From Cristatella mucedo (lineage: Eukaryota > Bryozoa > Phylactolaemata > Cristatellidae): 64,000 bases of DNA. Location of the stretch: assembly GCA_009760855.2 (NCBI GenBank), contig WPIO01000001.1, positions 13,769,001 to 13,833,000 on the forward strand, given 5' to 3'. The notes beneath the pieces were generated by a model. The model was not told the origin of the DNA, did not search any database, and saw nothing but the letters and a program-made list of their open reading frames with translations. Below, piece after piece: positions 19,280 to 63,555 of this stretch; within the stretch, counting starts at the first letter, position 1, and each line of letters opens with the position of its first letter. The translations under genes and the position numbers were made by a program.

Positions 19280-22200
19280 ATGGCCGGCGAAGCAAACTTC
19301 GTTGCGACTCATCGAGTGACTGAGCCTATGCTGCGAAATTTTGTAGGGAAGCGAGTGGCGCTCCTGGGATATGGATGCGAGGTATGCTGTTCCTAGGGCC
19401 CCTATTTCGTTGAATTCCTCCTATCAGACAAACTGCACCTCCACCGCCTGGTGCTTTTTAGTGTCGATGCTTCGTGCTCGCCGTTCATATGGCTGGTTAC
19501 CTCGTATGTCGGATAGTCACGAGTTCTTCGCAGCCGCTTAGCTACCGGGACTGGTCCTACCTCGACGCTTGTTGAGCACTCGTCGTCTAGGATAGCAAGC
19601 GAATGTACACACTGATCGTTTTCCTCTCTGCCTCGAATTGTGTGCTTGGTTAAAACCGATGGCGTGCGCTAAAAAACCGGTCAAAGCCACCTAGGGTGCC
19701 AGGCTAAGCGTTCCGAGTTCTGAATGCATTTCATTCGATTGCGGACGTGGGTCGCCGGCCAAGACCTTTAATAATAATAATATTACATTTGTTATAGTGC
19801 CCTCAGAGAACTCAGTGTCTTGATAGACGCTCCACATTTGCTGCAAAGGAAGCATGATCGAATGATTAGTTGGAGCATGCTCAATGACAACAAGCAGAAC
19901 TGGTTAGAGGTGACTGCACACGGTCAGCATGCAAATATGGTTATTGGCAGCATGCAAAGTGGCAGCACGCATGAGCACACAAAGGATGAATCCAATGGAC
20001 CCACTAAATGCCTTTGAGGTATAGGCGTGGGACCTCCTAGCAGCTGGTTACCGGAGCAAGTCTAGGCTACTCTCCATAGCAGTGGTCTGTCGCATAGCAT
20101 AGTCTGGCAAATCACCCAACCTGTTTTTAAAATAGCTGCCCTTCTCACTCGTGACTACCTTTGATGCTGAATTGGAGATGGTGTAAATTCAACTTGATGA
20201 TACCAAGCTCAGTAAACAGTGTGTACTAAAAACGTATTTTTTTATTACAATTAGCATTTAAAACCGTAGGGTGGCTCCACCCTTTGGGTGGAGCCAGCAG
20301 GCTCTGGCTACTTATGATAGCAGGGAAGCTGACTCGGGTACAATTCGACCTGAATTTAAGCATTTTAATTTAATTGTCCCTGAATTGATGCGAAATGCTT
20401 GTGACTACCAAATTTGTTCTTGGCAAGTAAAGTAAATTTCGGCTGATCCAACAGCCCCATTTCCATAGCAGCAGAGGCAGAGCCAGGATTTTTTGTCTAG
20501 GGGCACACCTGCAATATTTGTATGTAGTGGGCAAGACACGAGAGATTTTCATGTAGGGGCAAGACCCGCAAATAATGGAAAATTATACTGCACAATAGTA
20601 ATGTTCATTCGATAGGAACTTGGGGGCTGCTCATCGAGTTGAAGTAGGTCATAGTTTCGTCGTTGGTATAGTGGGGCCCTAAGAAAAGGAGGCAGCTCAG
20701 GTCGGTGTCCCAATGGGGGCAAATGCCCCCTGGCTCTGCCGATGCATAGCAGCAGAAGGGTCTTTTCGGTTGCCACCCTGTACGCCCCAGGCAATTAAGG
20801 ATATCTGCTGCAAGACTCGAACCCACAACCTGGGTCGTGAAGTGCAGCACCTTACTCTCTAGCCAAGATGAGATGTTGTTGATGTTGTATCTATAAGTGC
20901 TATGGCAAAAAGCCTTTTTTTTTAAAGAAGTCGTTCTTTGCTGATCAATCTGACTAGCTGGCACACACCTTATTTGATAGTTTTAGTGTGGCCCCTCGAA
21001 ACCCGAGGAATTCGAAAAACGACCAAGTCGTGGTGTAATAATGAAGTATTATTAAGTCTATCGGTGGATTATTGGCCTGACTCGTTTTGTAGTTCATCTA
21101 GCCTTGTACAAGCTACATCTTTTGGCATACTTTCAAGATCTGAGTACCATATTCTCACTTACTCTTGGGCCATTGTCGGAGCTGCTTGTATCACTTTAAA
21201 TATAAGTTGTGTTGTATCTCCATTGAGGTTTTTTAGCATTTCAAAAGCTTTGCATCATCTGTAAGTTTATGATATTACATGCAATTGCACATTAGCAGGC
21301 AAACGACAAGGGTCAAGAGTCAGTTATTGGTTCACAAGTTAGGTTGAGGTTTCTTTGGGCCCAGCAATGCAGACTGGAGTTTCTCAAATTTTGTTCTGCA
21401 GTTTAAATCAAATTTTTTTCTTAGAGAATCAAGAACCCATTTAGTGATTTTGTGGGAGGCACTACTTGTTAAGCGCTGCCTCACAGTTGCTTAATATACA
21501 GGATGTTTCTTGCCTTCTTTAGAGCATATCCTCAATGCAAGTCTTAAGCACCATAATGCTCCTGATGCATCATGCAACACTACACTTAGTGCTTAACCAG
21601 TCCATCACTAACTGAACGTTTGTTCTTTTACTTACTGTACTGTTTAGTCAAGTGTGCTAATGTTTTGTAGGCAGATTCGTCTTCACTCAGGTTCAAGATT
21701 AAGCAAGACGGCAAACCAGTGAGGGTGCAGCTATCAGAACCGGTACGCCCCGAGTTCCATAATTTTTGTTTTTACATCTTCATTTCAAAGGAATAAGATT
21801 GGATACATGCATCATTAGTTCCAGACTTAGATTTGTTATTTTGGCATTTTGGAACGAACTGTTTGCATTATAAATGTTAAAACGATTGGGGGCATTACGT
21901 GCCAGAGTGTGACGTCATTTGATAGCTCTCATATTTAAGGATGCCTGTTCGAGACTTCTAGGTGATACATGAGTCTCTTGAAGTTTTGTGGCTGGTCCCA
22001 TCTACTTGTCAGAAACCAGAAAAACAGTTATTTTGTACTTATTGTTAAACCTAAACATGTATACACATAATAATGATAATAGTAATACAACATTTGTACA
22101 ATGCCCTCATGAACTTATAATCTCTTTCTAGGTAGTTTACATATGCTGTAAGGGAAGCGTGTCAATATGGTTAGTAATAACATGCAACGTCCGAGTAATC

Positions 22201-25200
22201 TCGGTCAGCAAACCATTGTGTAAACAGTAGACGAGCATTGTTTGCAGTGACTGCTGTACATCCTGGTGTAGAGTGGTGGTTACAATAAATAATGTAAGTT
22301 GCACCAGTGAAGTCCTTTTCCTGATCACGTTGGTGTGCATACCTTGACCCAGGAGACTACCTCCGTGTGGACTAATTAATCATACCCATTTGAGTCATGT
22401 TAAGACATAGTACAACTCTAATTTCAGTTTACTGGATGTTATGGGAGCAGGACTGGCAAGTAGTTAAAAGTCTCTCATACTAACGCGACTTGGCAGGAGC
22501 TTCTTAGCGTATCTTCGATGCTGCATAGCTTTTCTCAAACTTTAGGTAAAACCCTTTTTTTGACTATGCTGCAAGTAGTAAGAATTTTGCACACTGTATG
22601 TACTAGCTGTTTTCTTCATTTCGCACGATGATACCTATCGATGTTTTATATCTTCAGTGGTGAGCTATTTAGCTTTTGCATCTACTGGGAATAGAAGGGT
22701 TAATGGTTTATTCACTAGACTCACGCTATGTATCAAAATCAGGCGGTCATTCGTCTAGTAATTCTAGCCCCACCGGTTGCAACCAACACTTCGTTATGCA
22801 GTGGATGTTCGTGTTTTTGCTTTAATGAGCTCTTTCATTTTGGTGTCTGCAGAAGACTATTCGTGTAGCCTGTGTACACAATCTGGCTGTTCTGATCCAA
22901 AATGACCTTTCACCAGATGACCACCTCAGCAGCACAGTCAAATCTGCCCACTTCCAGCTCAATAACCTTCTGGAAGTTCGGTTTTGCTTTGGTAAGGATA
23001 CCACAGCCAGGCTGGTCCATTAATTACCAACGTACCCAAACTTCCGAAACTCACCACTTGCAGATATTCTGACCCGTACAATAGGGCACTTACAGTTGGT
23101 GCAAGACTCTGCAACTGCCATATTGCGCTATTCTCACTGACCTGTACTGGCTCCCTGTCAGACAGATATCAAATTCAAGGTCCTGTCACTCACTACTAGG
23201 TCCCTTAATAATAATGATACATTTGTATAGCATCTTCATATAACTTAATCTCTTTCTGGGCACTTTACAGATGCTGTAAAGGAAACATTCTCTTGCTCCG
23301 GCCAACCGATCCAAAATACTTCCTAATCAGGTTTTGCCTACCCGCTATTATAACTAATCTAGTTTAGCTATGCCTATAATAAACCTCAAATCCTGTGGAG
23401 ACCGTGCCTTCAGTTCATATGATCTCAAAGCCTGTGTCACTACGAACTGATGCCACACCTCCTCTTAAATTGAATGTAAAAATAATCTAAAACCGATCTG
23501 TTTTATCACAGCATCTGTTCCGTTTGTGTGAATTGACCTTTACTTGAATATGTGTGCTGAAGTTGTGCTTGTTTTCACTGTGTTCACTAACCAATTGACT
23601 TGCTTCCTTCCCGGCTTAAAGTGCTCAGAAAGTTATTTAATAGACTTAAGACGCCTAGAAAGTCGTTCAATACTCCTAGGATGCTATGCAAGTGTATAGT
23701 ATTGCTATTAAGGACCTTCAGCTCGGTGGCTAGCACTTTCAGGTTTCTTGTTTATCTTCTTATCTGCTTAAAAAATGTGATTCCTAATGTCTGTGTTGCA
23801 ATTGAGCATGGTGAACAGCTTTGGGTATGGAAAGCTTGGAGGTGTCGTAGCTGCTGCCAAAAGCCTATTTTGGCTAGGGTTGTTTATTTATAAATGACTT
23901 AATGTTTGTAAGTTATTACCTCAATAATTGGTCGATCTCATGACATTTTTACAACGGCACCTACTGTTGTGTGTGTGCTCGCATTTGACTTGTTAGGTTG
24001 ATTTAGTGCAGGTATTCTTACGACAATGTTGCTCTGCCCAAGTGTGCATTTGTATGGAGTTAGCCGGGCATTAAAAACATTTTTGTTTTCTGCTACAGCT
24101 AAATATATACGTCGAACAAATTCTAATGGAAGTGTACGGCGTCGTGTTGAATGACTTGTCAATCAAAGCTGATTCATATATAGAACTCCCCAAGCAAGCT
24201 GCATCAACGTTCAGTAAGTGCACTTTGTTAGGGTTACCGTTAACAAGCCTGCACGTTTTACAACATAGTCGTGACGTTACGTCACACAGGTCATCCAAGC
24301 AGTTGGACAATTTGAGATGCTGTACACTGCGAGGACAGTTTTGCCAATGTACATTCTTGTGAGGACGTTGCTTAAGCAGTCTGCCGGTTGCGATTGCATC
24401 CTAGTATGCAAGGTATTGTAACGTGCAGGGTAGTATAATCTGACAATTGCAAATTGGCTGTGATTAACTCTGGGGATATTCTGCAGTCAGTAAATACTGT
24501 CTTCAAAATACGAAGCAACAGTTCTGCATGCATAAGAAAGCTCTCTGAACCATTTGCCACCCCCGTGGTTAGAAAATGACGTGGGAAGTTGCACAGACAC
24601 AACTGTCATTTCTGCTGCCTACAGCGGCAGCGCAAAAGTTTTTGCACCCTGAGGATCAAGATATGACCTCGAATATTTTTTTAATGTAATGCGGGCCAAC
24701 AATATTTTACCAGAAGATTGGCATGAGTTAGCAACATCCATAACAAATCGTGCATGCTGCCCCTTAGGTTCCTTACCATGTGCAGAAAAACGTGAACAAT
24801 TACCGTTTTAGGGGGTGTGGAGCAATTTCGGGTTTCTGATATAGTCGTCTTCTTCGAAAGGCATTATTTTGTAGTACCGTCTGAGCACTGTGAAGCAAGA
24901 TGTACTGAATGCACCAAGTATCCCTCTTTAAATGCATATCTGAACAACCGTGTTGAGGATTATCTCAGCAATCATTCAGGGTGTGAAGCATTGTATTTTG
25001 AGCATGCACAACCATAATCTGACTCACAGAATGATATAAAAATTGATGTAGAATAAAAAAACTACTTAAAGCCATTTTTTGATCAACGAGGAATTCAATA
25101 ATTCTTTTAAATTATTTCCTTTGTTCCTTCTCACAATCTCACTAAAAACTTTTTAATACATGCAGATCGCTGTGATTTTGGCAGACGAAGCTTCCTATGG

Positions 25201-26497
25201 CTGGTCTAGTCACATGGCACCCGGAGCCATGCTTCCATGCATGTTGTCATCAGAAACTATTATTAATGATGAAGGAATTACAACATCCTGTGTATGCTGA
25301 TTTTGAGAAAGCTTACGCATGCCAAGTATCGTTGCACATGCTATGTCAATACATGCCAATATCTGATCGAGTTTCGGTCGATTGTGTAGCTTTGGGCCAT
25401 GCCAGTGCTGTCGATTACCATACATTGCCTGAGATTGTACCAGTGAATTGGTTTAAATCATGTGGTTGCACTTAAGCATAGTCTGATGCAACGTGTATTT
25501 AAAATTGGAGCGATCAAATTTCTAGGCTTTTTTGCAGCAGAATGCAGTTGGTCCGGGCCATTGCAGTCAATTGCCGTGTCTTGCATGTGAATGCCCGAGG
25601 TAATTGTAATGAAATTGTGCAAGCACACTAGAAGAATAATATTTACAAAGAAGAGTAATGTGCAATCAAATTCGAACTTATTGTATATGATTTCTGGTCT
25701 TTTTTGGCCGATTGTGGTTGCCAAGGAAAAATTCTGTTTTACTTCATCGTTGGTGAAAAGGGCAAAACCCGCATGTAAGCATAAGCTCAAAAAAGTTATG
25801 CTTATATGCATCAGAGGAGGCTATCCCAGTGGAAGTATATATTGGACGTGATTTTTCTTTATAAAAAGAAGCAACATCCGAGTTGATTCACAGAATTCGC
25901 CAAGTCTGTATGGCAGCACTTCATATATATATCGAAAACTATGGAGGTTACTACAGTTACCCGACTTTACCGACCGAATCCTCCTCAGGATCCCGACCTT
26001 ACCACAGATTAAAAACCGACACCGACAAGTTGGCAGTTTTTCATTATACTGGGGCATCAGCAGTTTGAATAATAGTGTTAGTGCAGTCACTCACAGCTGG
26101 AGTTATGATGCCGGCTTGCAAAATTACCTAGATAGTGACATGCTTTTTCTATTTGCGATGATTGCTGCTTTCTAGTCTTATACTGTTTGCCAAATTAACG
26201 TTTTCATTCAACTTACCAAATTTAATGTGCATTCTGTATCTTGCCTTTCTGGTTGCAGTAGCAAAGCAGATATACCAGTGGGTTTATTAGTGCCATTCAA
26301 ATTGTATTGAGTATGGTCGTTTTTTAATCTTGTATGCGTGTTCGTGAACCTCTGGGAGCTAGGTGGAGAAGCTTAGAGAGTCATGGTATAAAGAAGTGGG
26401 TGCATGAGTACTATTTTTCGTTGCAGACATAGATCAGTACTGCAAAGCAGTGACCTTGGCCGACACATACCGAGATCATTACAAGGTCACAGCCTGA
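19280..26497 (+). CDS. RPA3: Replication protein A 14-kDa subunit (RPA3), four exons
   Basis: The exons are 19280-19381, 21671-21742, 24099-24213 and 26427-26497. They join in phase to a 119-residue protein; human RPA3 is 121. The ATG at 19280 opens MAGEANFVATHRVTEPMLRN, matching the family's pattern of an N-terminal strand before an ML..F helix. Exon 2 (SLRFKIKQDGKPVRVQL) and exon 3 (EQILMEVYGVVLNDLSIKA) supply the OB-fold strands; the segment corresponds to the human EISGIVEVVGRV region. Exon 4 ends with the C-terminal helix (IDQYCKAVTLADTYRDHY) that in RPA forms the trimerisation bundle. The protein is the small structural subunit of the heterotrimeric ssDNA-binding complex in nuclear replication and repair. 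It faces MIOS tail to tail. The sequence is quite diverged, but phase, length and gene order agree. Confidence 0.85.
19769..20017 (-). mobile_element. LINE 3'-tail fragment in RPA3 intron 1
   Basis: It shows (ATT)n, the hairpin region (GGGCACTATAAC side) and the CATGCTGACCGTGTGC spacer of the LINE 3' UTR on the - strand. No coding part remains. Confidence 0.75.
20269..20294. repeat. Short perfect inverted repeat
   Basis: GGCTCCACCC, then TTT, then GGGTGGAGCC: a 10-bp stem with a 3-base loop in RPA3 intron 1. No function is evident. Confidence 0.5.
20438..20870 (-). mobile_element. SINE1 copy split by a MITE
   Basis: The SINE1 3' end (20438-20471) and the rest of the element (20745-20870, with GGGTTCGAGTCT on the - strand) are separated by the 273-bp element at 20472-20744. 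Confidence 0.75.
20472..20744. mobile_element. hAT-like MITE with 8-bp target duplication
   Basis: The left end CAGAGGCAGAGCCAGG and the reverse complement of the right end, CATCGGCAGAGCCAGG, form terminal inverted repeats. The flanking 8-bp direct repeat CATAGCAG (20464-20471 and 20745-20752) is the expected hAT target duplication, and the CAGAGGC start is typical of hAT ends. Removing the element restores the SINE1 sequence. It encodes no transposase. Confidence 0.85.
22064..22200 (-). mobile_element. LINE 3'-tail fragment
   Basis: An AAT-rich run, then a GCCCTCATGAACTTATAATC hairpin region and UTR spacer on the - strand, inside RPA3 intron 2. Confidence 0.6.
22880..23560 (+). mobile_element. 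Degenerate LINE copy interrupted by a tail fragment
   Basis: The + strand shows the reverse-transcriptase C-terminal segment (FHQMTT..SSTVKSAHFQLNN after frameshifts). It is broken at 23206-23288 by an inverted LINE tail (AAT-rich run, then ATAACTTAATCTCTTTCTGG). The copy then continues into the TCCTGTGGAGACCGTGCC segment. Confidence 0.7.
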
Positions 26498-26546
26498 CTT
26501 GATCTAAGAAACCAGTAATACAGATCTTCTTTGTACATAATTTAAA

Positions 26547-26552
26547 AATAAA
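26547..26552 (+). terminator. RPA3 poly(A) signal
   Basis: An AATAAA 50 bases after the RPA3 stop and 66 bases before the convergent MIOS stop. Confidence 0.65.
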
Positions 26553-26617
26553 TATATTATATGATCATTGACACAAGAGTAAGTTCAACTAAACAATGTA
26601 CCCCAAGAAGTGAGCAC

Positions 26618-29600
26618 TCAATCGTGTAGGTTGATCTGCTGGACCAGCAATGGTATAGTGTCTATAGCATAGCATTTGCATGTACAGCCACTGACCATGC
26701 ATTCATTGTTGTGCCTACAAAGACAAAAAGTGTGCATGTAGTTTTTTCTTTACAATTTCTTGAAAAAGCCCGCTGAAAAAATGATTGCTCAATAATAAGG
26801 ATATTGAACAATGTCGAAGTCTCCTACAAGCTACATTGTAAACATGCTGATGCTCCGAGCAAAGGTAATCCATAGCAGGTATGACGAAATACTCAATGCC
26901 TTTAAGACTTAGAACATCTTAGAATATTAATTCAAGAAGTAATTGCTTGCCCATCTTAGAAGATTAATTAAAGGACTTATTGCTCGCTCTTCTTGACAAA
27001 TTGGTAAGGCGAGTGCCTTAACCACTGGCCCAAATCTTGGTGTTTTATCACCTGATACCAAGATAAATTCAGTAAAGAAGTCTTAAAACACAATGCTGAA
27101 AGCATTAATTGAATTAAAGCACGTGCAAACAAGATGTGAAAGTACAGCCCCGAGGCAAGATTGGTGCTGGCTATTTGCCATTGCAGCTCTAGGCTAAGAA
27201 CCTAAGGACAAGGTCATTTATGCATGTCATGACATGAGCAACTGGGGTAAATCAGCTTAAGAAAACGTGTACGATTCATCCTGATGGTCACGTCAATATC
27301 ATACGTCGGCAAAGATTCTCTATAGGCTAGTGTAAGGCATTGGAAGACATCTCGAAAAGTACCTTTAAATTGACCTTGGTCGAGACAGCAACTCAAAAAT
27401 TGCTGACTGAAAGGACGTGCCACCATTATACTGCCTACTGCTTGCAGTGATACCACTAATCATTTGGCCATTATTTCTATAAACATCTGTAAAGTGCCTA
27501 GAAAGAGATCAATTCTCTGAGGGTGCTATACAATTGTATTATTATTATTACCATTTAAGAATGGCCAAAGTATAGCAGACCGGCAGCATCCCTTCACTTC
27601 GCCCATGCCACTGAAATGCACGGTCCTATTCTACCACAACTTTCTCCACCACAGCTGAGGATAGTAGTACCTTTCATCATCCGGTCGGTATTGAATGAGG
27701 TCTTCATACCGAGATGCCCAACTAATTCGTGTCACTTGGTTAAAATGGGACAATCGCGTCATCACAAGAGAATTCTCTCGCCCGTTAACTTACAAGTAAA
27801 GGAATTCACAGTATGGCAGCGTGCTCGGTTGGCCATTTCCATCGGCTGCATAACTAGTTGGATATTAATATAATTTACCAATTGGCATATGAAGCTGCAA
27901 CGTGCACTCTCATAATTGACAGTTAACGCTGACATAAAAAATTAATATAAATTTAAAGATGGTCATCACATACATATGTTCCACGCAAGCAACTCAATCC
28001 TGATTTGCGCCCTACTGCTGACGAATAAAATTAGATTTAGGTGGGCTTTATAAGAAAGCACCTCACCTATGACAAGGTCAAACAGGGATTTTGAGCACCG
28101 GACGGCCCAGATCGTGGTATATAGTTGCACATATAGTCTTTGCCGGACAGCAGACCAGGCTCACCAGCTTGGCTGGGCTTACCATTAGGTCACGGGACAC
28201 CCAGGCCCAAATTGTAATACAATACTGAAATTTCCCGATATTTTTCGGTGACATAAGCCAGCGCTGTCATAATGCACATTAGGACAGTTATTTCACTAAA
28301 AAATGGAAGGAGCACGGTAAAAAGTCGGGCAACTATAGCAACAAGCAATGAAGGTACCAGCTACGCACTGACTAAAAAGTCACATTACAAGCCGAGCTTG
28401 GGTTCTGATTCGAAGGCTATTATACGCACATGCCGAGCATGCGTGCACGCTAGCCACTTACCCAAACCATTCACGCAAATGTCCAGCGTGACCACCATGC
28501 CTGCAGCTCTGACACCAAGCAAACCAGTCATCAGCGCGTCCTGGAAAATAGCGATGCTTAGGCCACGACCACGAAGCAGCGCGGCCCATCACAGGCGGCA
28601 GCAGCACGGTCAGCAGGCAGAGGACAACCAAGAGCAGCTGGCGAGAGCAGTGAACCAGCAGACCCAGCTTAACCTACCGTAGGCATGATCATGGACCGGC
28701 TGCCGGGCAAGCGTCAGAGACGTCCCCATGCTCATCAGGCACAGCGAGCACCGCGGAAGCGGTTTCCTGCACTCGACGCACACGCTAACCTGCAACGTAC
28801 GGGCACTGTCGTCCACAGATCAACAGGCTATGCGGCCACGGCAGTGCGATTGTGACCCATAAGCTAACCAACCGCCAGGCGACGAACAAGACAAACGACC
28901 GCTCTCTATGCTGTGCTTTGCCAACAGATTTTTCTCTCTGCTGACTAATGACAAGTGCATCCGGACACAGTTTCAAGGGCCAACGCTGGCCGGCCCCATA
29001 GCTGGCTCACTAGGCTGCTTGCAGCAACACGGTGGCCGGTACATTAACACTAGCTCCCCTGGAAGGCTGCGGTCTAAGCATGACAAGAGGACAAGCGACT
29101 CTTGGCAGGTCCTGCTTTGACAGAGAGGCAGTTGGCAAGCTCGACCCAGGGCTCAGCGTACGGGGGCCATGCCTCCGGTGGCGGCTGCTTTTGCGGTAGA
29201 TCCTTTGCTCCAGATACCGCGGGCCGTCAAACTCGTCCGACTACTTCTGCACCACCGGGCGGTGAGCAATGAATGAGCCACCGATCGCAGCAATTGTACA
29301 CAGCAGCCACCTTCCATTTCAACGTCATGCTGTCAGAGTTTCAAGAGTAGAGTATGAGCATAATTTAGCAGAAGGCCTAGCGCTCCATGACACCTGCAGT
29401 GGCGGCGCCGGGGCTAGCTGGGATCTAGCTTAGAACCGCTCTCAAACACTCGCCCTTCGGACAGTGGCCAGCTAACGAAAAACTCAGTGAGCTTGCAGAC
29501 ACCGGCACTCCTGCAGCCCACAGCAAATCAGAATTGGTGACAAAAAGACGTCATTAGCCCAGCTTTGGACAATGCCAATGGTCGGAGCCAGCAGGAGGCT

Positions 29601-36872: not shown

Positions 36873-36945
<73 letters not shown>

Positions 36946-51900: not shown

Positions 51901-54900
51901 GAAGCAACGCGCAAGCACCTGAACCGTAGGCTAAGACCCAGAGGCTACCGAGCAAGCAGCATGACTTGCATGTAGTGACCACGATGGTACAAGGCTGAAG
52001 CCCCCCTGGCAAGGGGCATGCTGCCCACTACGATAGCCTGGCACAGACTAGGTCAATGCTAAGCCCAGCTCTCATTAAATTCTTCACCCTCCCCAATACA
52101 AATTTCTTAGCTATGTCTACTGTGAAGACATAGCTCATGGGTATGCAACCAATATTAAGTTGGTCCCTTCTAGAACAAAGGACGTGAATGAACAAATTAG
52201 TCGCACCCAATAATTTTGGCAGGTAAACACAAAAGGTCTACATGCTTGGCACATAGACCGTGTGAATTGAGTAACAGGAGACTGACATTGCTGCTTAAGT
52301 TGCCCCGAATTCGAAGCGTACTGCCAGTACCCACCGGTTTTTCAAAGCTTCTCGTGTCCCAAATGCACAGCTGACTTTCGACAAATGATGCAAGTAGCGT
52401 CTCATTGCGGGGATCGATGCAGACACCATGGACACACTTGGTAGTTGTGGTGATCGGTTTCATGTTTGAGTCTACAGAGGAGCAAGTGTGATACACTGAG
52501 CCGATTAGAAACCACGCACAGGCAGCTCAAAAACCAGCGCATCTACTGCCGTCTAAAAGAGTCTGCACGCCATTACCTCTTAGGTCATAGATACGCAAGT
52601 ATTTATTTATTCCAGTCACAAAGGTCTTTTTCGTACCACGGAACCATGCCAAAGAATGCGCAGCCTCGGACGAACCTATACACAAGCCGGAAAACAACAA
52701 CAGTGATTAGAAACCATTAACTAGAATAAGAGTTAGGTGTAACGATGCATGCGACTGAAGGTCCAGATATAGGGGTCACTCACCAAGCTCATAGAGAGCT
52801 TTGTACGAAGTTGTGTCACCATGGCCACCACCAGAAACATACGCACCAGCCTGACCACCCCACCTGTCAGGCGAAGCAGGGGCCATATCCTGCATCACAT
52901 CCCAAATTAGTATGCAGGGATCATTGCGAGTCTTGTCCAGACCAGCAGCAAGCTGAAAGGAAATGCCAGATAAGTTACTGTGCACAACACGGCAATATCA
53001 GTCGCCGGACTGCAGCCAGACACGTAGTCACATGATCCTCATCCACCCAGACGGTGCAAGAGCGCTCTGATGCAGTCCCAAGCACAGAGCAAAGTTGATC
53101 AACAGAGGCAGCACCAATGCCCCACTATCAGCTCGGTGAGCTCGGAGGCTACATATAAAGGATAACTTTTAACGAATCTATGATGCCCTCAGCATTCACA
53201 AGAATAGATTATTACACATATATTACTGGCAGCCATAAGTTTTGCCGAAACCACCCAACTATGGCCGCCTAGCCGGTTACTGATGCAGGAAGTTGTGAAA
53301 TCTACCCGGAGGGTTCAAACCAGTAAAACTGATACCAAAATACACACAACGGCCTAACGTGCGATCAATATATCATGACAACCACAGCACCACGGGTAGT
53401 AGAAGCACTAATAATAGTAGGATGTGGTTTTTCTCCGATTAGCAATTTCTGCATTTTTGGCTGGCATGGGCTCGCCGAGTTTCAGTGCTACATCGGATGG
53501 TATAGCATGCCAAACTGCTTACAATCTGTCCCATAATTTGGCCGGTGGTCTTATGCTGCTGTCTATAGGCCCCAGTCGACACTAAAACCACATCCTCTAA
53601 TCTTCCAATATTCGGTCGTCCAGCTGCTGTGCTGCCATTCCCCTCTCAAGGTTTGTTACTTTGTGTGCTTTCGTCAGTAGCGGAACTTTCTTTGCTACCC
53701 TAGCCATAAGACCGGCCGCATTCGCTGAGACTTCGCCGGTCCGTCTGCTCACTGCAGATCGTACCGATGCTAAGCTCGAGTGTTTGGCATGGACTTGAAT
53801 GCGATTAAAAAATGGCCCTTCAGGCACTTCATTTTCAGAAGCCGATCATCCCTCGTGTTAGAAGCCCAAAAGCATCCACACGCTGGCCGATTGTTTCCGC
53901 ATCTTACATAGGACAGCGCTCTCAATGATTCCTAGCTTTCGAGCAGTCATTCGGTTGCCGACCTTCCCAAGACGGTGAGATCACACCAGGTCCCTCACAA
54001 AATCCGGAAGGTGGCCTCCCCCTAAGCTACGCTACTTTAACTGCATACACGTGTCGATGCGGTCTGCAGCCATGGTCACTGGGTGTCTGACCAATGCCCA
54101 CGGTGCTAGTGCTTGAGAAGATGTTGCACCTTTTATTAAACGAATAACGTCTGCAATTGTAACCCATGAGATGTCGGCCTCATTTAAAGGAACTAAAACG
54201 ACACAAATACGCTCTGCTAGTGGATTTTTTTAGAATTACGATCATGTAACACGCCAGTGAGTGAGCTGAGTAATATCTTCAGCCTAGCGACTGAAATGCG
54301 CAACCGCAGTCGGCCATCGGCAACCAAGTTATCAGGTTGCTACGGATGTATAAAAAAAAAATGCCTACTGTCGGATTTTTCGGTATCAGTCCTCAGACGT
54401 CCTCCTGAGCAATAATTTACTGACCGAAACTCTATTTATTGAAAGCCAAAGAAATAAAATGGATTCTTTAGTATCTAACAAACATTTACTGTAGTTCCAA
54501 CAGCTACCGGCTGAGATAAATCAAATGTACTGACGAGAGGGCAAGTGCAGCTACCGGCTGAGATAAATCAAACATACTGACGAGAGGGCAAGTGCGGCTA
54601 AACTTATAATAATAATAAATATAATATAATTCATTTGTATAGCACCACAAGAGAACTAAATCTCGATTAAGGCGCTTCACATATGCCTCAGGGCTCGAGC
54701 CCACGACCTCAGCCAGACCTTAAGTCGGGGCGAGCACATTAACCGCTGGACCAACCTAGCTCGGCAACTTATGGCAGCTAGTGTACATGCAAACTAGTTT
54801 GCAACTTGGGCATTACACAATGAGAAGGATTTCCACATTTATGCCACGGAATGGAATTGCTTCATCATAGTTTACACATGCACACAAGCAAACACACCAC

Positions 54901-57900
54901 ATTCATATCCATGGGTATTATGCATGCCGAAATAAGTGCATCTCACAGCAGCTAGAGGCAGACTAGTAGTGCTCATGAATAAAGAGTAAAGAGCACCTAC
55001 CAATGGAAATTATCTATATTATATGGCCAACCATATCGCATGGCTCTGGTAGCACCACACTAACAGATCCATATAAAATCGACCAGTTTTACCTTTTTTT
55101 TAAATCGCCATTTTTTAAAGTCTACACAGTTTGCATGATTCCCTAGATATGATCACTCCTTCCTCATCAATTTCTAATGGTTAGGGGTAGCATGCTCGAT
55201 GAACAACAAGAATAACATGGTTAGGGGTGACATCCACAGGGTCACCACTCAACCATAGTGTACCTAAGCTAAGGAATGACTTGTACCACATACTGAGAAC
55301 CAATTCAAACCTGCCTATCCCGATGGACGATTTTTTCGAACAGCTTCGAATGCGGTGGAGTCAACACAGCACGACACAGTTTAGAGGCTAGTGCTGTCGA
55401 TGCCAAGCCCGAAACTGGCAGTCGCCGAGAACCGCACCCACTTTTTACCGACTCAGAACTTTGCTATTGCTGTTTTATCAACTTCTAAGAGCTTCATAAA
55501 TATTGTTACGCATAGTGTGAGGCTTAAGTTAACGTGGCAAGGAGAATTTTTGCCTGCAAGTCCTCCGATTGATCGCAACGGTCATTTAGGTAAGGGCATG
55601 TAAATACCTATGGACGTGAGTGCAAGAATATGCATTAGATAGAATATCCATTTAGACATTTGCAGAAATGTACTCCAGCCGACCGCCATTGCACCATACA
55701 GGAAGTACAGGCACGCATCTATACTGATGAGTTTTGCTACCCAACGATATATTAAATAGGGTTTGGCAGGACTGGCACTCAAGCACGAGACTATAGACCA
55801 TTGGCCGCGTGAGGTTTTGGTCCCCAGCCATTCATTTATGTTCAATACATAGCTCAGTGATTTCAAACAACGTACCAAATTGCTGTCGTCCGGGTTCCAT
55901 GCTAAGCAATAGCATTGTCGTCCGTGCTTCGGGGCTAAAACACAGGCCATAGCTCCATGCTGAGCACCAGATGAAGCAACGATACTGCATGGTATGCAGC
56001 CAGCTTGCACACAGCCTCAATAATCACAGCCAGATGCCATATGGTTAGCCGATAAAAAAATATACAAGCTGATTTAACAGCCTCTTTTGTATAGCAACAG
56101 AAGAGTCTCCGCAGCTATCCCCGCCACTTGCAGGGGCAATACAGGATCACCCACAGCAGGATTCGAAATCACGACCTCGGGACGGAGGCCATGAAAAGCA
56201 ACTGCCTTAACAGGTGTGCCATCACGGCCCCCAAGTGATGGGGACTTACCAAATTCGCGTCCCACCAGCCGGTCATTACTCTTCGAGTGCAGACTAGAAA
56301 AAGAATAAACACGTGTGCCTAGTAAGATGACATGGGTAGCAGCACAGCAGCAGCAGCTAAACAGGCATCAGCCAGCCTGGAATAGACAACACTCCCCAGG
56401 CCATCGAAGAAGCAATACAGTTTCTCATTTACCTAGTCAGTAGTATTTTGCCATTTGCTTGCCCGACTGCCACTAGGTGATCATGGTCCGGTTTTGGATA
56501 CCAAGCAATGCACTGCAAATTAGGGAGCACACATGCAGTTAAAGGTCTCCAAAAGCCAAAATTCCAGGCCCGGCACAGCGATTTAACTACAGTGCGTGAT
56601 TTAGTTTAGCCCAACAAGCTGAGGTGCTATGAAGAATACCTTTGGATAGACACTGTCGACATTAGGCGACAGCAGATAGCTGAAGGCATCGTCTGATAGC
56701 ACATTCTTGTCAGCTGAAAGGGTTAAAACAGATACATGGTAGTACAGCTTGCCCATTAATATCTTAATAGCTTCAACGATCGCACAGCATGAGCAGCTAC
56801 TAATCGATTAAAAGGCTCAAGTGAAATCACATGGTTGATCTAAAAACACAAAAGCTCAGTAAAGTAGTCACAGCAAAAATGGCTGCAGCCCGGTTCAATG
56901 TGCCAAGTAATTATTATCACATGCAACGGATATGCAGATTTCTGGTCACCATAGAGTAGCATGCTAGCTAAACAGTAACTCTTAAAAATGGCCAGCTAAT
57001 ACCACTCTGCTAATGGGCTTGAATCTGCTTGGACTAGACCAGCAGTGAGAGGAATTGCTAAGAGGGTGATAAAAAAAGGCAGTAAACTTGCAGTTTCTGT
57101 GCTCTTATCTGAAGTCTACACTAAATGAACCCTAAGGATTGCCAGAGGTCCATAATAACTGCAGCAGTACATATTCTCGTTTGAGAATAATCTCTTCATG
57201 GACTACATGAAGTTTATTACCCAGTATTAATAATAGTATGTAAGAGATTTCAATTTTTTATCCTTGGCAACTAAGTGCATTTTCCTAACAGCTAATTCCC
57301 GAAAAATAATTGAAAAATGGCTATTTTCCCACAAAATTTTTGCATCTGTCGTCAGGGCAACACTGTTTTTAAATTCTCATTTTTTCTGTTAGACATGGTC
57401 CTGACGTCAGGTTAGCACCTACAGCATTGCCTTGTGCCGCTACCCAAACTAGTGATGGTTGGGCCAACACAACAATATCAAGTATTATGCATAGAGATAT
57501 AACAGTACAGGTGCTTTAAACGAACATTTTGGTATATAGTATTGCAGAGTAAGAGGATAGTGAATAGCCATATTGATTTACATAGCATCAGTTAGCTTGC
57601 ACATGGTGGATGTATTTTGCTATATGTGTAGACAATCCAAGAGCAAAAAGTACTGCATGAAAGCATCTACGCTATGCGAGGACTAAACAAAGCATACTTC
57701 GGCATGCCTGCCGGGATCAAAGCAAGCTCTGGATAATGGCTAATTGGTATAATGGCAATTTTCTGTGCTTGTGAGGCATAAGCTATAAGGAAATAATACT
57801 ACCCGGGATAGAAATTGTGCTACAAAGCAGGCACTAACAATATGAGGGGGTGACTCTGCACATCAAGTAATGAGAACAGGTCATCTCTGGGCTAATCCGG

Positions 57901-60900
57901 TGGTGCTTACCATGATGTCAACTCCCGACAATAAGTTGCTTGTGCTAACATTCACTAATTACTTCAAGTTGCTGCTTCTCTGCTTATCACGAGTGTACAG
58001 TAACAAAGGCAATTGCTGCACATTACAGCTGGTGTACAATTGTTCAGCCAGGCTTGTCTGTCGCGAACATGGCAACTGCCATATTACACAGCTCATCACC
58101 GACCAGCACAGGGTATCTATCAAGCAGCATATCGACTTCAAGATTGCATCCTCCACTTTTAGGTTCCTCCATTCTCTTTCTCCAGCCTACCTATCAAAAA
58201 ATACTTCCTAATCAAGTTTTTCATCCTACCACCATCTCTCAGACTCAAATCGTTTCTCACTACAATCGTTTCTCTTTACAACCTCGAATTATCTTAAATC
58301 ATTTGCTGCATGTGTTGATGACATCCGCACATAAATGGCAGCAAATTTTCTAAAACTAAACGATGATAAAACTAACTTACTAGTTATGGGCAAACCCAGT
58401 GTGATTCAGAAATTGGAAAGGCTGACGATCAAAATTAACTCTGCCTACATATCTCCTGTTGAATCAGCTCGAAATCTAGGTGTCATGTTCCAACGTGACC
58501 TCTCGTTAGACGACCACATCAGCTCCACAGTCAAATCTGCCTACTTTCAGCTACATAACATTGCTAAAATTCGGGCTTGTTTAGATAAAGATACCACGTC
58601 CAAGTTGGTCCATGCATTCGTGACATCCCTTCTCGACTTCTGCAACTCACTGCTTACTGGCCTACCGACATGTGCAATCAGGCGATTGCAGCTGGTGCAA
58701 AACTCCGCAGCTAGACTTATCTGTCATGAGCGTTGCACTTGCCATGTCACACCACTTCTCGCCGACCTGCACTGGCTACCAGTCAAGCAACGGATTGACT
58801 TCAAGGTTTGTCACTCACTTTTAGGTCATTTCATTCTTTGGCTCCAGCCTATCTCTCAGATCTACTCCTCCACCAGGCCAAGCATCGTACCACCCGCTTT
58901 TCGGAATCCAACAGTCTACCAATACCTCGTACAAAGCTCAAATCCTTTGGAGACCGTTCATTTAGTTCATATGCTCCCAAAGCCTGGAACTCCCTCCCGA
59001 CTTGCATCAGAACATCACCTGACTTGACCACATTTAAAAAGAACTTAAAAACACACCAATTTAGGACAGCATTTAGTGGGTTCCTGTGATTCGTCCTTAT
59101 GTGCTTATGTGTGCTGACACTGTGCATGCTGCCACTAACCACATTTGCATACTGACCCTGTGCATGTCACCACTAACGTTGTAATTCATGTTGTTTGTTT
59201 ATCAAGCATGATATTACTCACCATCCAATTGCATTTTCCTTTGCAGCAAATGTAAAGCACCTAGAAAGAGATTTGAGTTCTCTGAGGGAGCTTTATCAAG
59301 TGCATTATTATTATTACAACGCATGTTAAGTGTGTAAAATATATTTAGTTCTCTGAGGGTGCTATAGAAGTGTAATAATAATAATTATGATTATGATTAT
59401 TAGCTGTGCCTTCTAAATAACCTCAAATTCTTTAGAGACAGAGCATTTCAGTTTGTTTGCTCCCAAAGCCTGGAACATACTCCCGACTGAAGTCACGACT
59501 TTCCCTGCCTTGATGACATTTAAAAAGAAGCTAAAGTACAGTGGTTTCTCACCGATTGCTCTGTCCACATGAATATTCTTTGTGTGCTCATGCGAGCAGA
59601 CACTGTGCATGTTATCATTAATCAATTGACAAGCTAACTTTCCACCCCATGTAAATGGCCCTAGAAAGAGATTTACTTACCATAGGCAGCTATATGCATG
59701 TCTATTATTCTTATTATTATTTTATGTTTCCATAAGTTTCAAATAATTGTGCTTGGATGCACTGCATCATTGAGAGGGCAACTGCGTGGAAGGAAGCTGT
59801 TTCAGCTGCCATTGCTGCCTGTTTCAGCACATATAGCCGTTGCTTAGGATGGGCAGGCGATAATAGAAGACTACCCAGGGATGCTGACCGAGCAGAGCAC
59901 TGGTGGCACAGAACCGTTCCTTAAGATTTGGGACTTTCAGCTCAAAGGTACGTACTTCATTGAGACAGATTCTGGGTTCGATACTAGCACACAATCCTTT
60001 AGTGACCACTGCAGGCAAGATGAAAGGGACTAGGGTTTTCCTGAAGCTCATATAAAATAAACGAGGCTGTTGAATCAGCCAAATTTTCCTTTTTTCTGCA
60101 GTCCCCTGTTTCTGTGTGCAGCTCTTTTCAATGCCAGAAGATCGGTGCTAAATGGCAAAAATGCCACGAGTGAGCTAGAGCGAGAAAAAGGTCGAGCACA
60201 TTTACTCTGATACAAACAAGCATCACGCTAATGGCAACAACGCACTGGTTGCATGTGAGCATCAACAAGTTAAGCAGTAGCTCCGACAAAGGGTAATTTT
60301 AAAAAGTAGGCATACGATGGATAACGGAAAGGGTAGTTTCAAAAGAAGACAACAAATTCCTGCAGAAAAATCAACTCCAAGTTCATAATTGTGATTGAAG
60401 TCTGCTGCCTAATGACACCACACGAATTTCGTAAAATGGATGGCATGCCAGGCGTAGATAAGGCGACATGTAGCGATTACTGCACGGTCAGGCTGGCGCC
60501 CAGTGAAAGCACACGGCACGGCAAGAAGAACTTCATGCGAAAAGAAGTAGTGCAAGCACGTGCACACGCGCACCGCCGGTCGAATTAACAAACTGCAGAG
60601 AACGCACGGGAAGCTAATAGATGAAATGAGTAGTTTTGACAGAGCCAAACCAGACAATAAAAAGACCCCAGGTAATCTTTATTCTGCGCACGTTATATGA
60701 TAAACATCGCATAGTCACTCTACGATAAGTGATCAAAAAGGTTTGGTGGTAAAACACTACCGCGGTGCGGCGCCTTACCTCGATCAACAAGAGCTGAGTC
60801 TTGAGTTCGGTTAAATTCTACCTGATATAAAGTTATTTCTGAGCCAAACGTGATATATTTGTCCTCGGCACTCGGTGACCATAAAACTTCCCACTTCGCA

Positions 60901-60917
60901 ACAGCCGGCTGAGCCAT
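26618..60917 (-). CDS. MIOS: MIOS (meiosis regulator for oocyte development homologue), GATOR2 complex subunit
   Basis: Twenty-three exons on the - strand give about 800 codons of a protein that is 875 residues in human. They cover the N-terminal propeller, the solenoid and the C-terminal zinc-binding domain; the three entries that follow list them. Every placed junction has an AG acceptor and a GT donor, and all join in phase except on either side of one gap. Diagnostic segments include [86 protein letters not shown] and [10 protein letters not shown]. In animals MIOS works with WDR24, WDR59, SEH1L and SEC13 in GATOR2, which opposes GATOR1 and supports amino-acid-dependent mTORC1 activation at the lysosome. 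The start is set at the ATG at 60917, matching the human N-terminus, but the frame stays open upstream. Introns hold many SINE and LINE insertions. Confidence 0.93.
27478..27553 (+). mobile_element. LINE 3'-tail fragment in a MIOS intron
   Basis: TGTAAAGTGCCTAGAAAGAG, then CTCTGAGGGTGCTATAC and (ATT)n. Confidence 0.75.
30018..30213 (+). mobile_element. SINE1 copy with internal duplication
   Basis: A well-kept head (GCTCACTAGGTAAGGCGG) and a variable-arm palindrome whose loop reads CC instead of GA. The cactgcaag(t/c)agtggtgatag unit occurs twice in tandem before the 3' end. Confidence 0.88.
30895..31075 (+). repeat. Interspersed repeat family R3, copy 2
   Basis: It is similar to 3500-3695 through the AACACCCAC and GTGGCTTTG(T/C)GG segments and the ATACATTA-like end. 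Confidence 0.5.
31255..31342. repeat. CA-rich microsatellite next to MIOS exon 20
   Basis: An interrupted (CA)n tract that ends within about 20 bases of the exon 20 donor at 31359, on the intron side. Confidence 0.75.
31569..31590. repeat. Poly-G/poly-C tract
   Basis: A run of more than 15 guanines, then TGGGGGG, in MIOS intron 19. Such runs often form G-quadruplexes and are assembly weak spots. Confidence 0.7.
32866..46327 (-). CDS. MIOS: MIOS exons 12-19: alpha-solenoid
   Basis: Exons in order: about 46234-46327 ([15 protein letters not shown]), 44779-44824 ([14 protein letters not shown]), 44503-44606 ([20 protein letters not shown]), 41266-41480 ([20 protein letters not shown]), 40163-40228, 39952-40024, 35900-36041 ([19 protein letters not shown]) and 32866-32907 ([14 protein letters not shown]). 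The exon 12 donor is weak (GTTTCT). The conserved linker before the CGW motif, about 60 residues in human, was not placed between 44825 and 46233. A stretch near 45220-45300 ([17 protein letters not shown]) is a weak candidate. The exon 13 acceptor at 44825 could instead lie about 20 bases upstream. From exon 13 to exon 19 every junction is in phase. Confidence 0.88.
33430..33955 (+). mobile_element. Degenerate LINE copy
   Basis: The + strand retains AACTACCTTTCACTGGATGAC, GGTGCAAAACTCTGCAGCTA and TCCTTTGGAGACCGTGCCTT. These correspond to the reverse-transcriptase C-terminus in broken frames. Confidence 0.7.
33972..34122 (+). mobile_element. SINE1 copy
   Basis: GAGGTAAGGTGCTCGC, GTCGTGGGTTCGAATC, GGGCGATCCTTTATAGCC and the GAGGCTGTTAAATCAGC end. 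Confidence 0.8.
34197..34352 (-). mobile_element. SINE2 copy
   Basis: On the - strand: a GCTGGGTTGGTCCAGCGG head, GGGCTCGAGCC B box, and the GCGCCTGAATAGAGATTAAG tail ending in ATTTATTTATTT. Confidence 0.85.
36056..36145. repeat. 45-bp tandem duplication at the MIOS exon 18 acceptor
   Basis: TTCAATTTCGCATTTCAGAA plus about 25 further bases occurs twice, differing at only a few positions. On the - strand it ends about 15 bases before the exon 18 acceptor at 36042. Confidence 0.85.
36874..36965. repeat. GA microsatellite grading into GGGA repeats
   Basis: (GA)n to about 36942, then GGAGGGAGGGAGG. The Arg-Glu open frame through it is spurious. Confidence 0.85.
37445..38225 (-). mobile_element. 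LINE copy with reverse-transcriptase core
   Basis: On the - strand a frame at 37870-38229 reads [15 protein letters not shown] and [10 protein letters not shown], the reverse-transcriptase B and C motifs including the catalytic YADD. The C-terminal segment follows in shifted frames. Stops and frameshifts mark it as inactive. Its upstream part appears to continue past a SINE2 insertion, at about 38361. Confidence 0.82.
38226..38360 (+). mobile_element. SINE2 copy inserted in a LINE
   Basis: TGGCTTGGCCCAGTGGTTAA, then a GCCGAGGTCATGGACTCCAG head, then the CGCCTGAATAGAGATTAG tail and AATGAATTAT. LINE sequence (TGCCGAAAGACCTAGC) resumes on the far side. Confidence 0.8.
38887..39842 (-). mobile_element. 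5'-truncated LINE with intact 3' ORF segment
   Basis: It ends in an (ATT)n run and hairpin at the low-coordinate end. A 201-codon open frame (39246-39851) encodes [39 protein letters not shown] and [20 protein letters not shown], ending near FRDCA. It is one of the two youngest-looking copies in the window. Confidence 0.9.
40488..40522. repeat. Short CA microsatellite
   Basis: An (AC)n run between TATATAGAC and GCACAACT. Confidence 0.8.
40610..40790 (-). repeat. Interspersed repeat family R3, copy 3
   Basis: On the - strand: GAAAGCCGCTTAGGGTTTGA, then AACACCCACGTAG and GTGGCTTTGTGGAGTTAG. It parallels 3500-3695. Confidence 0.5.
41588..41665 (+). mobile_element. LINE/SINE tail fragment
   Basis: AAGCGCCTAGAAAAAAAGAT, then TTCTCTTTTAGTGG and an ATC/ATT-rich run. 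Confidence 0.6.
41690..42060 (-). CDS. Possible membrane-protein exon, unidentified
   Basis: A long - strand frame reads [15 protein letters not shown], then a strongly hydrophobic stretch ([20 protein letters not shown]) and a further cysteine-containing tail. That could be the end of an ectodomain and a membrane helix. The frame runs on into a LINE tail, no convincing splice sites frame it, and it lies in the intron between MIOS exons 14 and 15 on the same strand. Probably chance, but noted. Confidence 0.15.
42510..42600 (+). mobile_element. Decayed LINE fragment
   Basis: GAGCTGCATTGGCTGCCTGC reads [13 protein letters not shown], the conserved [13 protein letters not shown] block of the LINE in worn form. 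Confidence 0.5.
43620..43764 (+). mobile_element. SINE2 copy, near-consensus
   Basis: TTGGTCTAGCGGTTAAGGTG (A box), GTCGTGGGCTCGAGCCCC (B box), GCGCCTGAATAGAGATTAAG and TTCTCTTGGGGCGCTATATA, ending AATGAATTAT. It is a good reference copy. Confidence 0.9.
46075..46113 (+). mobile_element. LINE tail remnant
   Basis: TTCTCTGAGGATGCTTTATC, then AAGTG and (ATT)n. Confidence 0.6.
46686..46818 (-). mobile_element. Degenerate SINE1 copy
   Basis: A CAACAGTCTCATTTGTAGAG end and a CGGTTTGAGTCC-type B box on the - strand. Confidence 0.65.
47305..48080 (-). mobile_element. Degenerate LINE copy
   Basis: A tail-like AATAATACCTTTTACATAGC is at the low end. The UTR and reverse-transcriptase C-terminal remnants follow (for example [17 protein letters not shown] on the - strand). 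Confidence 0.65.
48284..60917 (-). CDS. MIOS: MIOS exons 1-11: N-terminal WD40 beta-propeller
   Basis: Exons in transcript order: 60779-60917, 56640-56713, 56433-56512, 56250-56293, 55876-55934, 52784-52952, 52577-52675, 52335-52471, 49126-49255, 48533-48654 and 48284-48415. Exon 1 starts [20 protein letters not shown]. Blade signatures are [20 protein letters not shown] (exon 3), [19 protein letters not shown] (exon 6), [16 protein letters not shown] (exon 7) and [19 protein letters not shown] (exon 8). Exon 9 carries [20 protein letters not shown] and exon 10 carries [13 protein letters not shown]. The segment between the last two is shorter than in human: exon 9 joins exon 10 directly with GPASPHC. 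Exon 11 ends RALKNYGLE. All eleven join in phase. Confidence 0.92.
48985..49012. repeat. 5-bp microsatellite (CCAGT)n
   Basis: About five CCAGT units between MIOS exons 9 and 10. Confidence 0.8.
49292..50130 (+). mobile_element. 5'-truncated LINE antisense to MIOS, next to exon 9
   Basis: A + strand open frame encodes [59 protein letters not shown] and [17 protein letters not shown], ending near [13 protein letters not shown]. The 3' UTR, hairpin (AAAGCGCC...GGGCGCTTT) and (ATT)n follow. The copy starts about 37 bp from the MIOS exon 9 acceptor. The frame's first 50 codons are antisense to exon 9, not LINE. Confidence 0.92.
50334..50399. repeat. 13-bp minisatellite, about five units
   Basis: GGAGCAAGCACCG repeated about five times with small changes. 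Confidence 0.85.
50590..50770 (-). mobile_element. LINE 3'-ORF fragment
   Basis: On the - strand: [21 protein letters not shown], the end of the LINE ORF ([17 protein letters not shown]), with a GGTGACCGTGCCTTA stretch upstream. Confidence 0.7.
50955..51835 (+). mobile_element. Degenerate LINE copy
   Basis: It begins at CCAGTTATGGGCAAGCC (LVMGKP). It continues through [11 protein letters not shown]-like and [20 protein letters not shown] blocks in shifted frames. The hairpin tail GTAAAGTGCCTAGAGAGAGA and an ATT-rich run end it. Confidence 0.85.
54498..54600. repeat. 48-bp tandem duplication
   Basis: AGCTACCGGCTGAGATAAAT plus CAAA..TACTGACGAGAGGGCA occurs twice with few differences, directly beside a SINE2. 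Confidence 0.8.
54608..54768 (-). mobile_element. SINE2 copy
   Basis: On the - strand: GAGCTAGGTTGGTCCAGCGG head, GGGCTCGAGCC B box and GCGCCTTAATCGAGATTTAG tail. Confidence 0.85.
56067..56237 (-). mobile_element. SINE1 copy 12 bp from MIOS exon 4
   Basis: It has the family 3' end AGCTGATTTAACAGCC as read on the + strand. The palindrome is worn (ACGACCTCGGGACGGAGGCC). The tRNA-like head ends at about 56237, 12 bp into the intron from the exon 4 donor. Confidence 0.8.
57960..58310 (+). mobile_element. Degenerate LINE fragment
   Basis: GGTGTACAATTGTTCAGCCA, then [20 protein letters not shown] and [20 protein letters not shown]. This is the reverse-transcriptase C-terminus. It abuts a second copy. 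Confidence 0.75.
58311..59318 (+). mobile_element. 5'-truncated LINE, 230-codon ORF remnant
   Basis: It opens at [15 protein letters not shown]-like sequence and encodes [40 protein letters not shown] and [18 protein letters not shown]. After one frameshift the ORF end, hairpin and (ATT)n follow. Confidence 0.9.
59320..59725 (+). mobile_element. Two further LINE 3'-end fragments
   Basis: At 59320-59395 there is a lone tail (TTAGTTCTCTGAGGGTGCTA and AAT-rich run). At 59400-59725 there is a diverged ORF end (TTTAAAAAGAAGCTAAAG) with its own tail and ATT run. Confidence 0.65.
59985..60093 (+). mobile_element. SINE1 3'-half fragment
   Basis: ACAATCCTTTAGTGACCACT, then AACGAGGCTGTTGAATCAGC and a T-rich end. 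Confidence 0.55.
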
Positions 60918-62045: not shown

Positions 62046-63345
62046 GGGAGCTTTACAGTTGCTGCAAAGAAAACGCGATCGATCGGTAAGTGGTAGCATG
62101 CTTGATAAACAACATGAATAGCTTGGTATGGGTGACATGCACAGGGTCAGCTGCAAGTTTCGTTAGCGGCAGCGTGCACAGTATCAGCATGCATAAGCAC
62201 ACACAGGACGAATCACAGGGACTATCTAAATTTTGTCATAAATAGGTGCGTTTTAAAGTTCTTTTTAAATGTGGTCAAGTCAGGGGATGTTCTGACGCAA
62301 GTCGGGAGGGAGTTCCAGGCTTTGGGAGCATATGAGCTAAATGCATGGTCTCCAAAGGATTTGAGATTTGTACGAGGTATTGGTAAACTGTTGGACTCCG
62401 AAAAGCGATTGGTACGATGCTTGGCCTGGTGGAGGAGTAGATCTGAGAGATAGGCTGGAGCCAAAGAATGAAGGGACCTAAACGTGAGCGACAAAACCTT
62501 GAAGTCCACCTGTTGCTTGACTGGTAGCCAGTGCAGGTCGGCGAGAAGTGGTGTGATGTGGCAACTGTTAGGCTCACCTCAGACAAGCCTAGCTGCAGAA
62601 TTTTGCACCTGAAGTAAGCGCCTGATTGCACATGCCGGTAGGCCATCAAGCAACGAGTTACACAAGTCAAGACGGGATGTCACAAATACATGGACCAACT
62701 TAGATCTGGTATTCTTATCTAAACAAGCCGGAATTTTAGCAATGTTGTGTAGCTGAAAGTAGGCAGACTTGACTGTGGAGCTGATGTGGCCGTCTAACGA
62801 AAGGTCTCTGTAGAACATGACACCTAGATTTCGTGCAGATTCAACAGGAGGTATCCTGGTAGAGCCGATTTTGAGTGTTAGCCTTTCCATTTTCTAAATC
62901 GCACTTGATTTTCCCATAACTAGTAAGTTAGTTTTATAATCTTTTAGTTTTAGAAAATTTGCTGCCATCCATGTGCGGATGTCATCAATACATGCAGCAA
63001 GTGAGTTGAGAGAATTCGAGGTGCTCGAAGGCTGCGTGAAATCAAAGCAAAAATATAACTGAGTGTCGTCCGCATAGAAGTGAACGCCTATATTGTGCTT
63101 TGCAATCACGTCGGAAACCATGAAAAGAACCAGACCTAGCACGGAGCCCTGAGGTACCCCATATTTCAGAAATATCTCGGATGATCTTTGTCCATTCTCG
63201 TCAATACTCTGGAGTCTCCCACTAAGATTGGACCAGAACCATTGCAGAGCAGTGGCAGTGATGCCCAGGCGAGATGAGAGGCGCTCAAGAAGGACTTGGT
63301 GATCGATAGTATCAAAAGCTGCCGAGTTTTCAGTGATCAAAAGCT
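61914..63345 (-). mobile_element. Longest LINE copy with reverse-transcriptase motifs
   Basis: On the - strand two frames (62579-62890 and 62894-63340) encode AAFDTIDHQVLLERLSSRLG, KYGVPQGSVLGLVLF, GVHFYADDTQLYF and [39 protein letters not shown] and the C-terminal segment follow. The order of motifs ([34 protein letters not shown]) is that of CR1/L2-clade non-LTR elements. Frameshifts make it inactive. Its tail carries a CT microsatellite. Confidence 0.92.
61960..62043. repeat. CT microsatellite inside the LINE tail
   Basis: (TC)n of about 84 bp replaces the short AGAGAGAGAT of the LINE tail hairpin loop. The normal tail sequence flanks it on both sides (GCGCCCTCACAGAACTAAAT before, GGGAGCTTTACA after). 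Confidence 0.9.
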
Positions 63346-63555
63346 GCTGTGTTCAGCACAGCATTACGAAACTTGCGAGGCTGCAGCACAACAGGACGTA
63401 GCTGCAGCTCCTGAAATGCACTCGAACTGAACATCTTTCATAGACATACAAACTCTTAAATTTGCCATTGAGCTAGGAACTATACGATTTTATTACAGTT
63501 TTTATGATGCATAGGAGAGACAATAGACTTTCATATATAAAATAAATAAATAAAT

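Follow-up and report, generated by a model that had tools for sequence, protein, structure and literature searches.

Introduction

The closest described counterpart of the locus reported here is human 7p21.3. There, we take MIOS (plus strand) and RPA3 (minus strand) to be next neighbors in convergent orientation, with UMAD1 starting inside RPA3 and the 3′ ends of MIOS and RPA3 presumably tens of kilobases apart. The RPA complex binds single-stranded DNA and has RPA3 as its small subunit; MIOS is a subunit of GATOR2, which acts in amino-acid signaling to mTORC1. A human haplotype mapped to UMAD1 at 7p21.3 contains GLCCI1, ICA1, COL28A1, MIOS, RPA3 and UMAD1 together with LOC genes (PMC5958065). 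In pig, two studies name the two genes side by side in their lists for chromosome 9 (PMC10500877, PMC7724110). These human and pig papers provide gene lists for the locus rather than order and strand (PMC5958065, PMC10500877, PMC7724110).

Linkage of this kind has been surveyed across animals. In a survey of 49 genomes, 256 new blocks were inferred in the bilaterian ancestor, and the vertebrate ancestor inherited 70 blocks, fewer than the 110, 120 and 124 obtained with shuffled genomes (PMC8851819). This excess of shuffled over real blocks calls for caution, since chance can produce sharing with vertebrates when blocks are loosely defined. A block in that survey had at least three genes, separated by no more than five others (PMC8851819), and another study states of its own three-gene definition that it yields fewer false positives than pairs (PMC9023564). 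Among titles and the openings of abstracts, we found no paper on MIOS-RPA3 linkage.

We analyzed a stretch of 64,000 nucleotides (the window; all positions count from its first letter) in which a first-pass annotation had placed RPA3 and MIOS as convergent neighbors ending 120 bp apart. We assessed the two gene models, the interval between them, the lineage of the genome and the wider neighborhood, and then weighed the explanations for the persistence of the pair.

Results

The window contains no N and sits within one 24.8-Mb contig (C111) of a 572-Mb assembly of 688 contigs. RPA3 lies on the plus strand and MIOS on the minus strand, and the two genes converge with a gap of exactly 120 bp from stop to stop. 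Therefore, there is no room for another ordinary gene between RPA3 and MIOS. From start codon to stop codon, RPA3 spans 7.2 kb and MIOS spans 34.3 kb, and both genes are intron-rich.

The four coding exons of RPA3 (plus strand) were located by spliced alignment and reading frame at 19280–19381 (ATG at 19280), 21671–21742, 24099–24213 and 26427–26497 (TGA at 26495–26497). The spliced aligner permits GT-AG introns only; the GT-AG borders of this gene and of MIOS are therefore built into the models and provide no separate evidence. Together, the exons give a complete frame of 119 codons and a stop. The joined product matched the Pfam family Rep_fac-A_3 (PF08661) with 39.7 bits, above the cut-off of 23.5, over profile positions 5–105 of 105. 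When aligned with human RPA3, 28 of 116 aligned residues were identical, and the alignment score was 69; over 1000 shuffled sequences, scores averaged 9.5 and peaked at 39, none reaching 69. RPA3 was harder to detect because it is short and divergent. A tblastn search with human RPA3 missed the gene, its best match (E 1.6) lying elsewhere. A phmmer search of the product against the PDB up to E 10 yielded two matches, namely the telomerase subunit Teb3 (E 0.02), presumably of Tetrahymena, and an unrelated decarboxylase (E 0.53). As no chain named RPA3 was present among these matches, RPA3 is identified by its Pfam match, its length and its alignment. The PF08661 search of the whole assembly missed even the RPA3 of the window and is therefore uninformative on RPA3 copy number.

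The chain of MIOS exons on the minus strand was first located by tblastn with human MIOS, and spliced alignment resolved it into 27 pieces; the pieces at 46.3–45.8 kb align weakly and are probably incorrect. The WD40 part (48284–60917) consists of 12 exons, from 60917–60779 to 48415–48284, as indicated by spliced alignment, reading frame and the MIOS_WD40 family. These first 12 exons join in frame into 408 amino acids without a stop, beginning with an ATG at 60917. The next group (39952–44606) comprises exons 44606–44513, 41445–41266, 40228–40163 and 40024–39952; the first two or three of these encode the alpha-solenoid, and MIOS_a-sol matches residues 3–108 of the joined C-terminal piece. The exons 36041–35900, 32907–32866 and 31513–31360 follow (31360–36041), also from spliced alignment. 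The exons at 28462–28789, with uncertain borders at 28.7–28.5 kb, carry a CRHGGHAGH motif and one further motif, as found by tblastn, spliced alignment and zinc_ribbon_16. Finally, spliced alignment and reading frame placed the last coding exon at 26618–26714, with the stop at 26620–26618.

The encoded protein matched three Pfam families, namely MIOS_WD40 (E 1.3e-78), MIOS_a-sol (E 5.4e-36) and zinc_ribbon_16 (E 1.8e-19). A hand-joined, partial model of 756 amino acids matched a MIOS chain in the PDB at E 3.1e-187 and was 44% identical to human MIOS; this model omits a weakly aligned stretch corresponding to about human residues 405–510 and a few residues near 28.6 kb. Thus, the gene models, strands and gap were all as claimed in the first-pass annotation, and both gene identities held, RPA3 by its score above the Pfam cut-off and MIOS by the match of its partial model to the solved protein.

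We searched the 572-Mb assembly with MIOS_WD40 and obtained one locus, both reported matches falling inside the window. As far as this search reaches, MIOS has a single locus; the search recovered only two of the MIOS exons in the window, such that a divergent second MIOS could escape it. Animal MIOS was not found in scans of viral and genome contigs, none of which was animal besides the window's own genome. A pattern scan of the genome contigs returned 15 loci, including one true relative outside animals, a MIOS-like gene (L004, CAIVPV010000251.1) in a contig of a metagenome-assembled genome (MAG) binned as a Cytophagaceae bacterium. The two matched stretches of its frame contained five TAA, three TAG and no TGA codons, and the contig is probably a ciliate contaminant in the bacterial MAG. 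The next best locus (L003, E 0.027) looks like a chance match.

The interval between the stops (26498–26617; 120 bp) is A+T-rich, with a G+C content of 29% over the 123 bp measured across it, and its candidate 3′-end signals are consensus matches. For RPA3, an AATAAA hexamer is located at 26547–26552 (plus strand), starting 50 nt past the stop. For MIOS, the variant AATATA is located at 26558–26553 (minus strand), 60 nt past the stop, and abuts the RPA3 hexamer. Of 12 signal hexamers tested, AATATA alone was available to MIOS within the gap; further MIOS signals, i.e., ATTAAA at 290 nt, AATAAA at 330 nt and the variant AATACA between them, lie past the last exon of RPA3. The positions of these hexamers predict, with either MIOS signal, that the RPA3 and MIOS transcripts probably overlap tail to tail. 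AATAAA occurred 70 times on both strands of the window, compared with 49 matches expected from shuffles.

The lineage of the genome was assessed from its mitochondrial code. A COX1 search of the assembly hit six places. The gene is full-length on contig C688, and the other five matches, two on C83 and one each on C166, C549 and C299, are shorter. These shorter matches may be nuclear copies. In the alignment of the C688 COX1 with its best PDB chain (7o37_a), TGA stood at Trp in 13 of 15 cases, ATA at Met in 9 of 11, AGA or AGG at Arg in 0 of 10 and AAA at Lys in 2 of 2; i.e., the mitochondrial code is NCBI table 5, taking C688 as the genome's own mitochondrion. Table 5 is used by protostomes other than flatworms and also by cephalochordates (amphioxus), table 4 by sponges, cnidarians, placozoans and ctenophores, table 9 by echinoderms and flatworms, and table 2 by vertebrates. 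Therefore, the host is not a vertebrate. The first-pass annotation had considered an early-branching animal as host; this was not borne out, as COX1 follows table 5 and not table 4.

We then examined the gene order on C688. Translated with table 5, Pfam identified cox3, atp6, nad3, nad1, cob, nad4L and nad4 on one strand and cox2 on the opposite strand. The nad2 frame matched a general proton-antiporter family only, the nad6 frame had no Pfam match, and nad5 was named by eye. In the resulting order, nad1-nad6-cob-nad4L-nad4-nad5 run along a single strand, opposite to nad2 and cox2, and the large-subunit rRNA lies on the strand opposite to the nad1-cob-nad4 block. The nad1-(nad6)-cob-nad4L-nad4-(nad5) block resembles that of chitons, nemerteans and phoronids, unlike that of amphioxus; the rRNA strand presumably does not fit the chiton, nemertean and phoronid order. 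Overall, the mitochondrial gene order favors a lophotrochozoan. The C688 contig (L032–L033) is 21,008 bases long, and the same frames recur near 2.5–3.4, 11.6–12.5 and 13.7–14.6 kb. A second, partial nad3 was also present.

To the left of RPA3, the next recognized gene is MRPL37 (mL37; 9946–11307, minus strand), which is divergent from RPA3; its 454 codons in one open frame matched PDB mL37 at E 3.9e-31. MRPL37 is preceded by exon-sized fragments of an NAD-binding oxidoreductase (about 1184–1761, plus strand), with Pfam matches just below the cut-off, which we take to be perhaps OXNAD1. Presumably, neither MRPL37 nor this oxidoreductase gene neighbors RPA3 in human. In the 8 kb upstream of RPA3, neither strand had a Pfam match reaching E 0.01. 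On the other side, both strands were scanned over the first 3 kb past the MIOS start, which contained a reverse transcriptase and a sub-threshold DUF3915 match, and the following 20 kb (plus strand only) contained one reverse transcriptase. No COL28A1-like gene was recognized in ten flanking stretches, two of which were scanned with Pfam on one strand and the others inspected by eye from part of their list of open reading frames. These flank scans took each reading frame separately and were insensitive.

The families of other genes at human 7p21.3 were searched in the assembly. The ICA69 family had a single match, on C665, and the FAM117 family, to which GLCCI1 belongs, had four, two each on C122 and C387. 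The two FAM117 places represent either two paralogues or two haplotypes. UMAD1 is conserved across vertebrates (PMC10445733); a search of the window with a UMAD1 query gave nothing better than E 1.1. An extended 7p21 block is disfavored by the ICA69 and FAM117 matches on other contigs, which argue against local rather than chromosome-wide linkage, as the chromosome may extend beyond C111. Thus, only the RPA3-MIOS pair seems to have been kept of the human neighborhood.

Fragments that by eye look like one LINE family are found at 39246–39860, 49106–49897, 58335–59027 and 62222–63352 and in L024; RVT_1 matched in L024 and close to the right edge of the window. Frames of repeated phrases, seen by eye at 30020–30110 and in similar stretches, point to a short dispersed repeat that may be a tRNA-derived SINE.

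Discussion

The first-pass annotation had likened this pair to adjacent, convergent genes in human. The likeness stands in that MIOS and RPA3 are named at one locus in the human and pig papers (PMC5958065, PMC10500877, PMC7724110). The human pair is presumably also adjacent and convergent. The two loci differ in that the stops are 120 bp apart here compared with presumably tens of kilobases in human, that the ICA69 and FAM117 families matched only other contigs here, and that UMAD1 was not found in the window with the query used. Like the blocks of ancient animal microsynteny, the linkage is common to an invertebrate genome and vertebrates; the survey blocks contain several genes with gaps (PMC8851819), whereas RPA3 and MIOS are a directly adjacent pair. 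As direct adjacency is stricter than gapped blocks, we hold descent to be much likelier than coincidence. Ancient animal microsynteny is a known phenomenon, of which RPA3-MIOS is an ordinary case.

The pair is probably as old as the ancestor of bilaterians or, at a minimum, that of chordates. A protostome host, as favored, would take it back to the protostome-deuterostome ancestor, a cephalochordate host only to the chordate ancestor. We consider it likely that the convergent adjacency of RPA3 and MIOS was inherited from an early bilaterian ancestor and that the two genes, unrelated and housekeeping, have been passively retained. Under passive persistence, no breakpoint would yet have parted RPA3 and MIOS. 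The target between the genes is short here (120 bp between stops), and a break within either intron-rich gene would be damaging. Given the distance of presumably tens of kilobases in human, the short interval cannot explain retention there. The retention of one pair needs no special cause, and passive retention is the simplest explanation.

Chance has to be weighed against common descent, as RPA3 and MIOS may have become neighbors independently here and in vertebrates. Only two lineages were compared, and the match was noticed rather than predicted. In addition, the wider neighbors differ, with ICA69 and FAM117 on other contigs, such that no flanking context backs descent, and shuffled genomes can exceed real ones in vertebrate-shared blocks when the definition is loose (PMC8851819). 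However, for a pair adjacent in human, the probability of chance adjacency is 1e-4 in a random order of 20,000 genes and 0.2–0.4% (no more than 4e-3) if order is random inside a shared group of 500–1000 linked genes, these gene numbers being assumptions and convergent orientation not yet being allowed for. Even when the three adjacencies in the window are counted, the values are still 3e-4 for random order and 0.6–1.2% for the linkage group, i.e., 3e-4 to 1.2e-2. Coincidence is therefore improbable in our view.

Inherited linkage may instead have been actively kept. The first-pass annotation had suggested a shared regulatory element or a 3′-end constraint, and the stops just 120 bp apart would suit an AT-rich element or an antisense overlap that couples termination or dosage. 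The RPA3 AATAAA abutting the MIOS AATATA, with the likely overlap of transcripts that it predicts, is suggestive in the same way. However, convergent genes that lie close together often have overlapping tails even when selection plays no part, AATAAA is frequent in the window, and the human genes presumably lie much farther apart. We therefore regard a shared 3′-end arrangement as unlikely and prefer passive retention. A stronger form, in which a convergent pair at least as old as Bilateria was selected through coupled 3′ ends that link the dosages of a nutrient-sensing and a replication subunit, is less probable still. Linkage could also be kept by a regulatory element of one gene residing in an intron of the other, and RPA3 and MIOS are both long and intron-rich (7.2 and 34.3 kb). 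Animal microsynteny in general has been discussed in terms of this bystander model (PMC9023564). The model is concerned with developmental regulators with distant enhancers, whereas RPA3 and MIOS are housekeeping genes, and we consider it the least likely explanation of all.

Passive retention of an inherited pair is thus the reading that we favor. If the pair is common to Bilateria, RPA3 and MIOS would be a clean and easily checked example of neighbors that stayed together without an obvious functional link, and such a bilaterian linkage would be over half a billion years old. RPA3-MIOS could then act as a neutral gauge of the time over which genes stay linked by luck. If the transcripts overlap in many lineages, the same pair would become a test case for 3′-end coupling.
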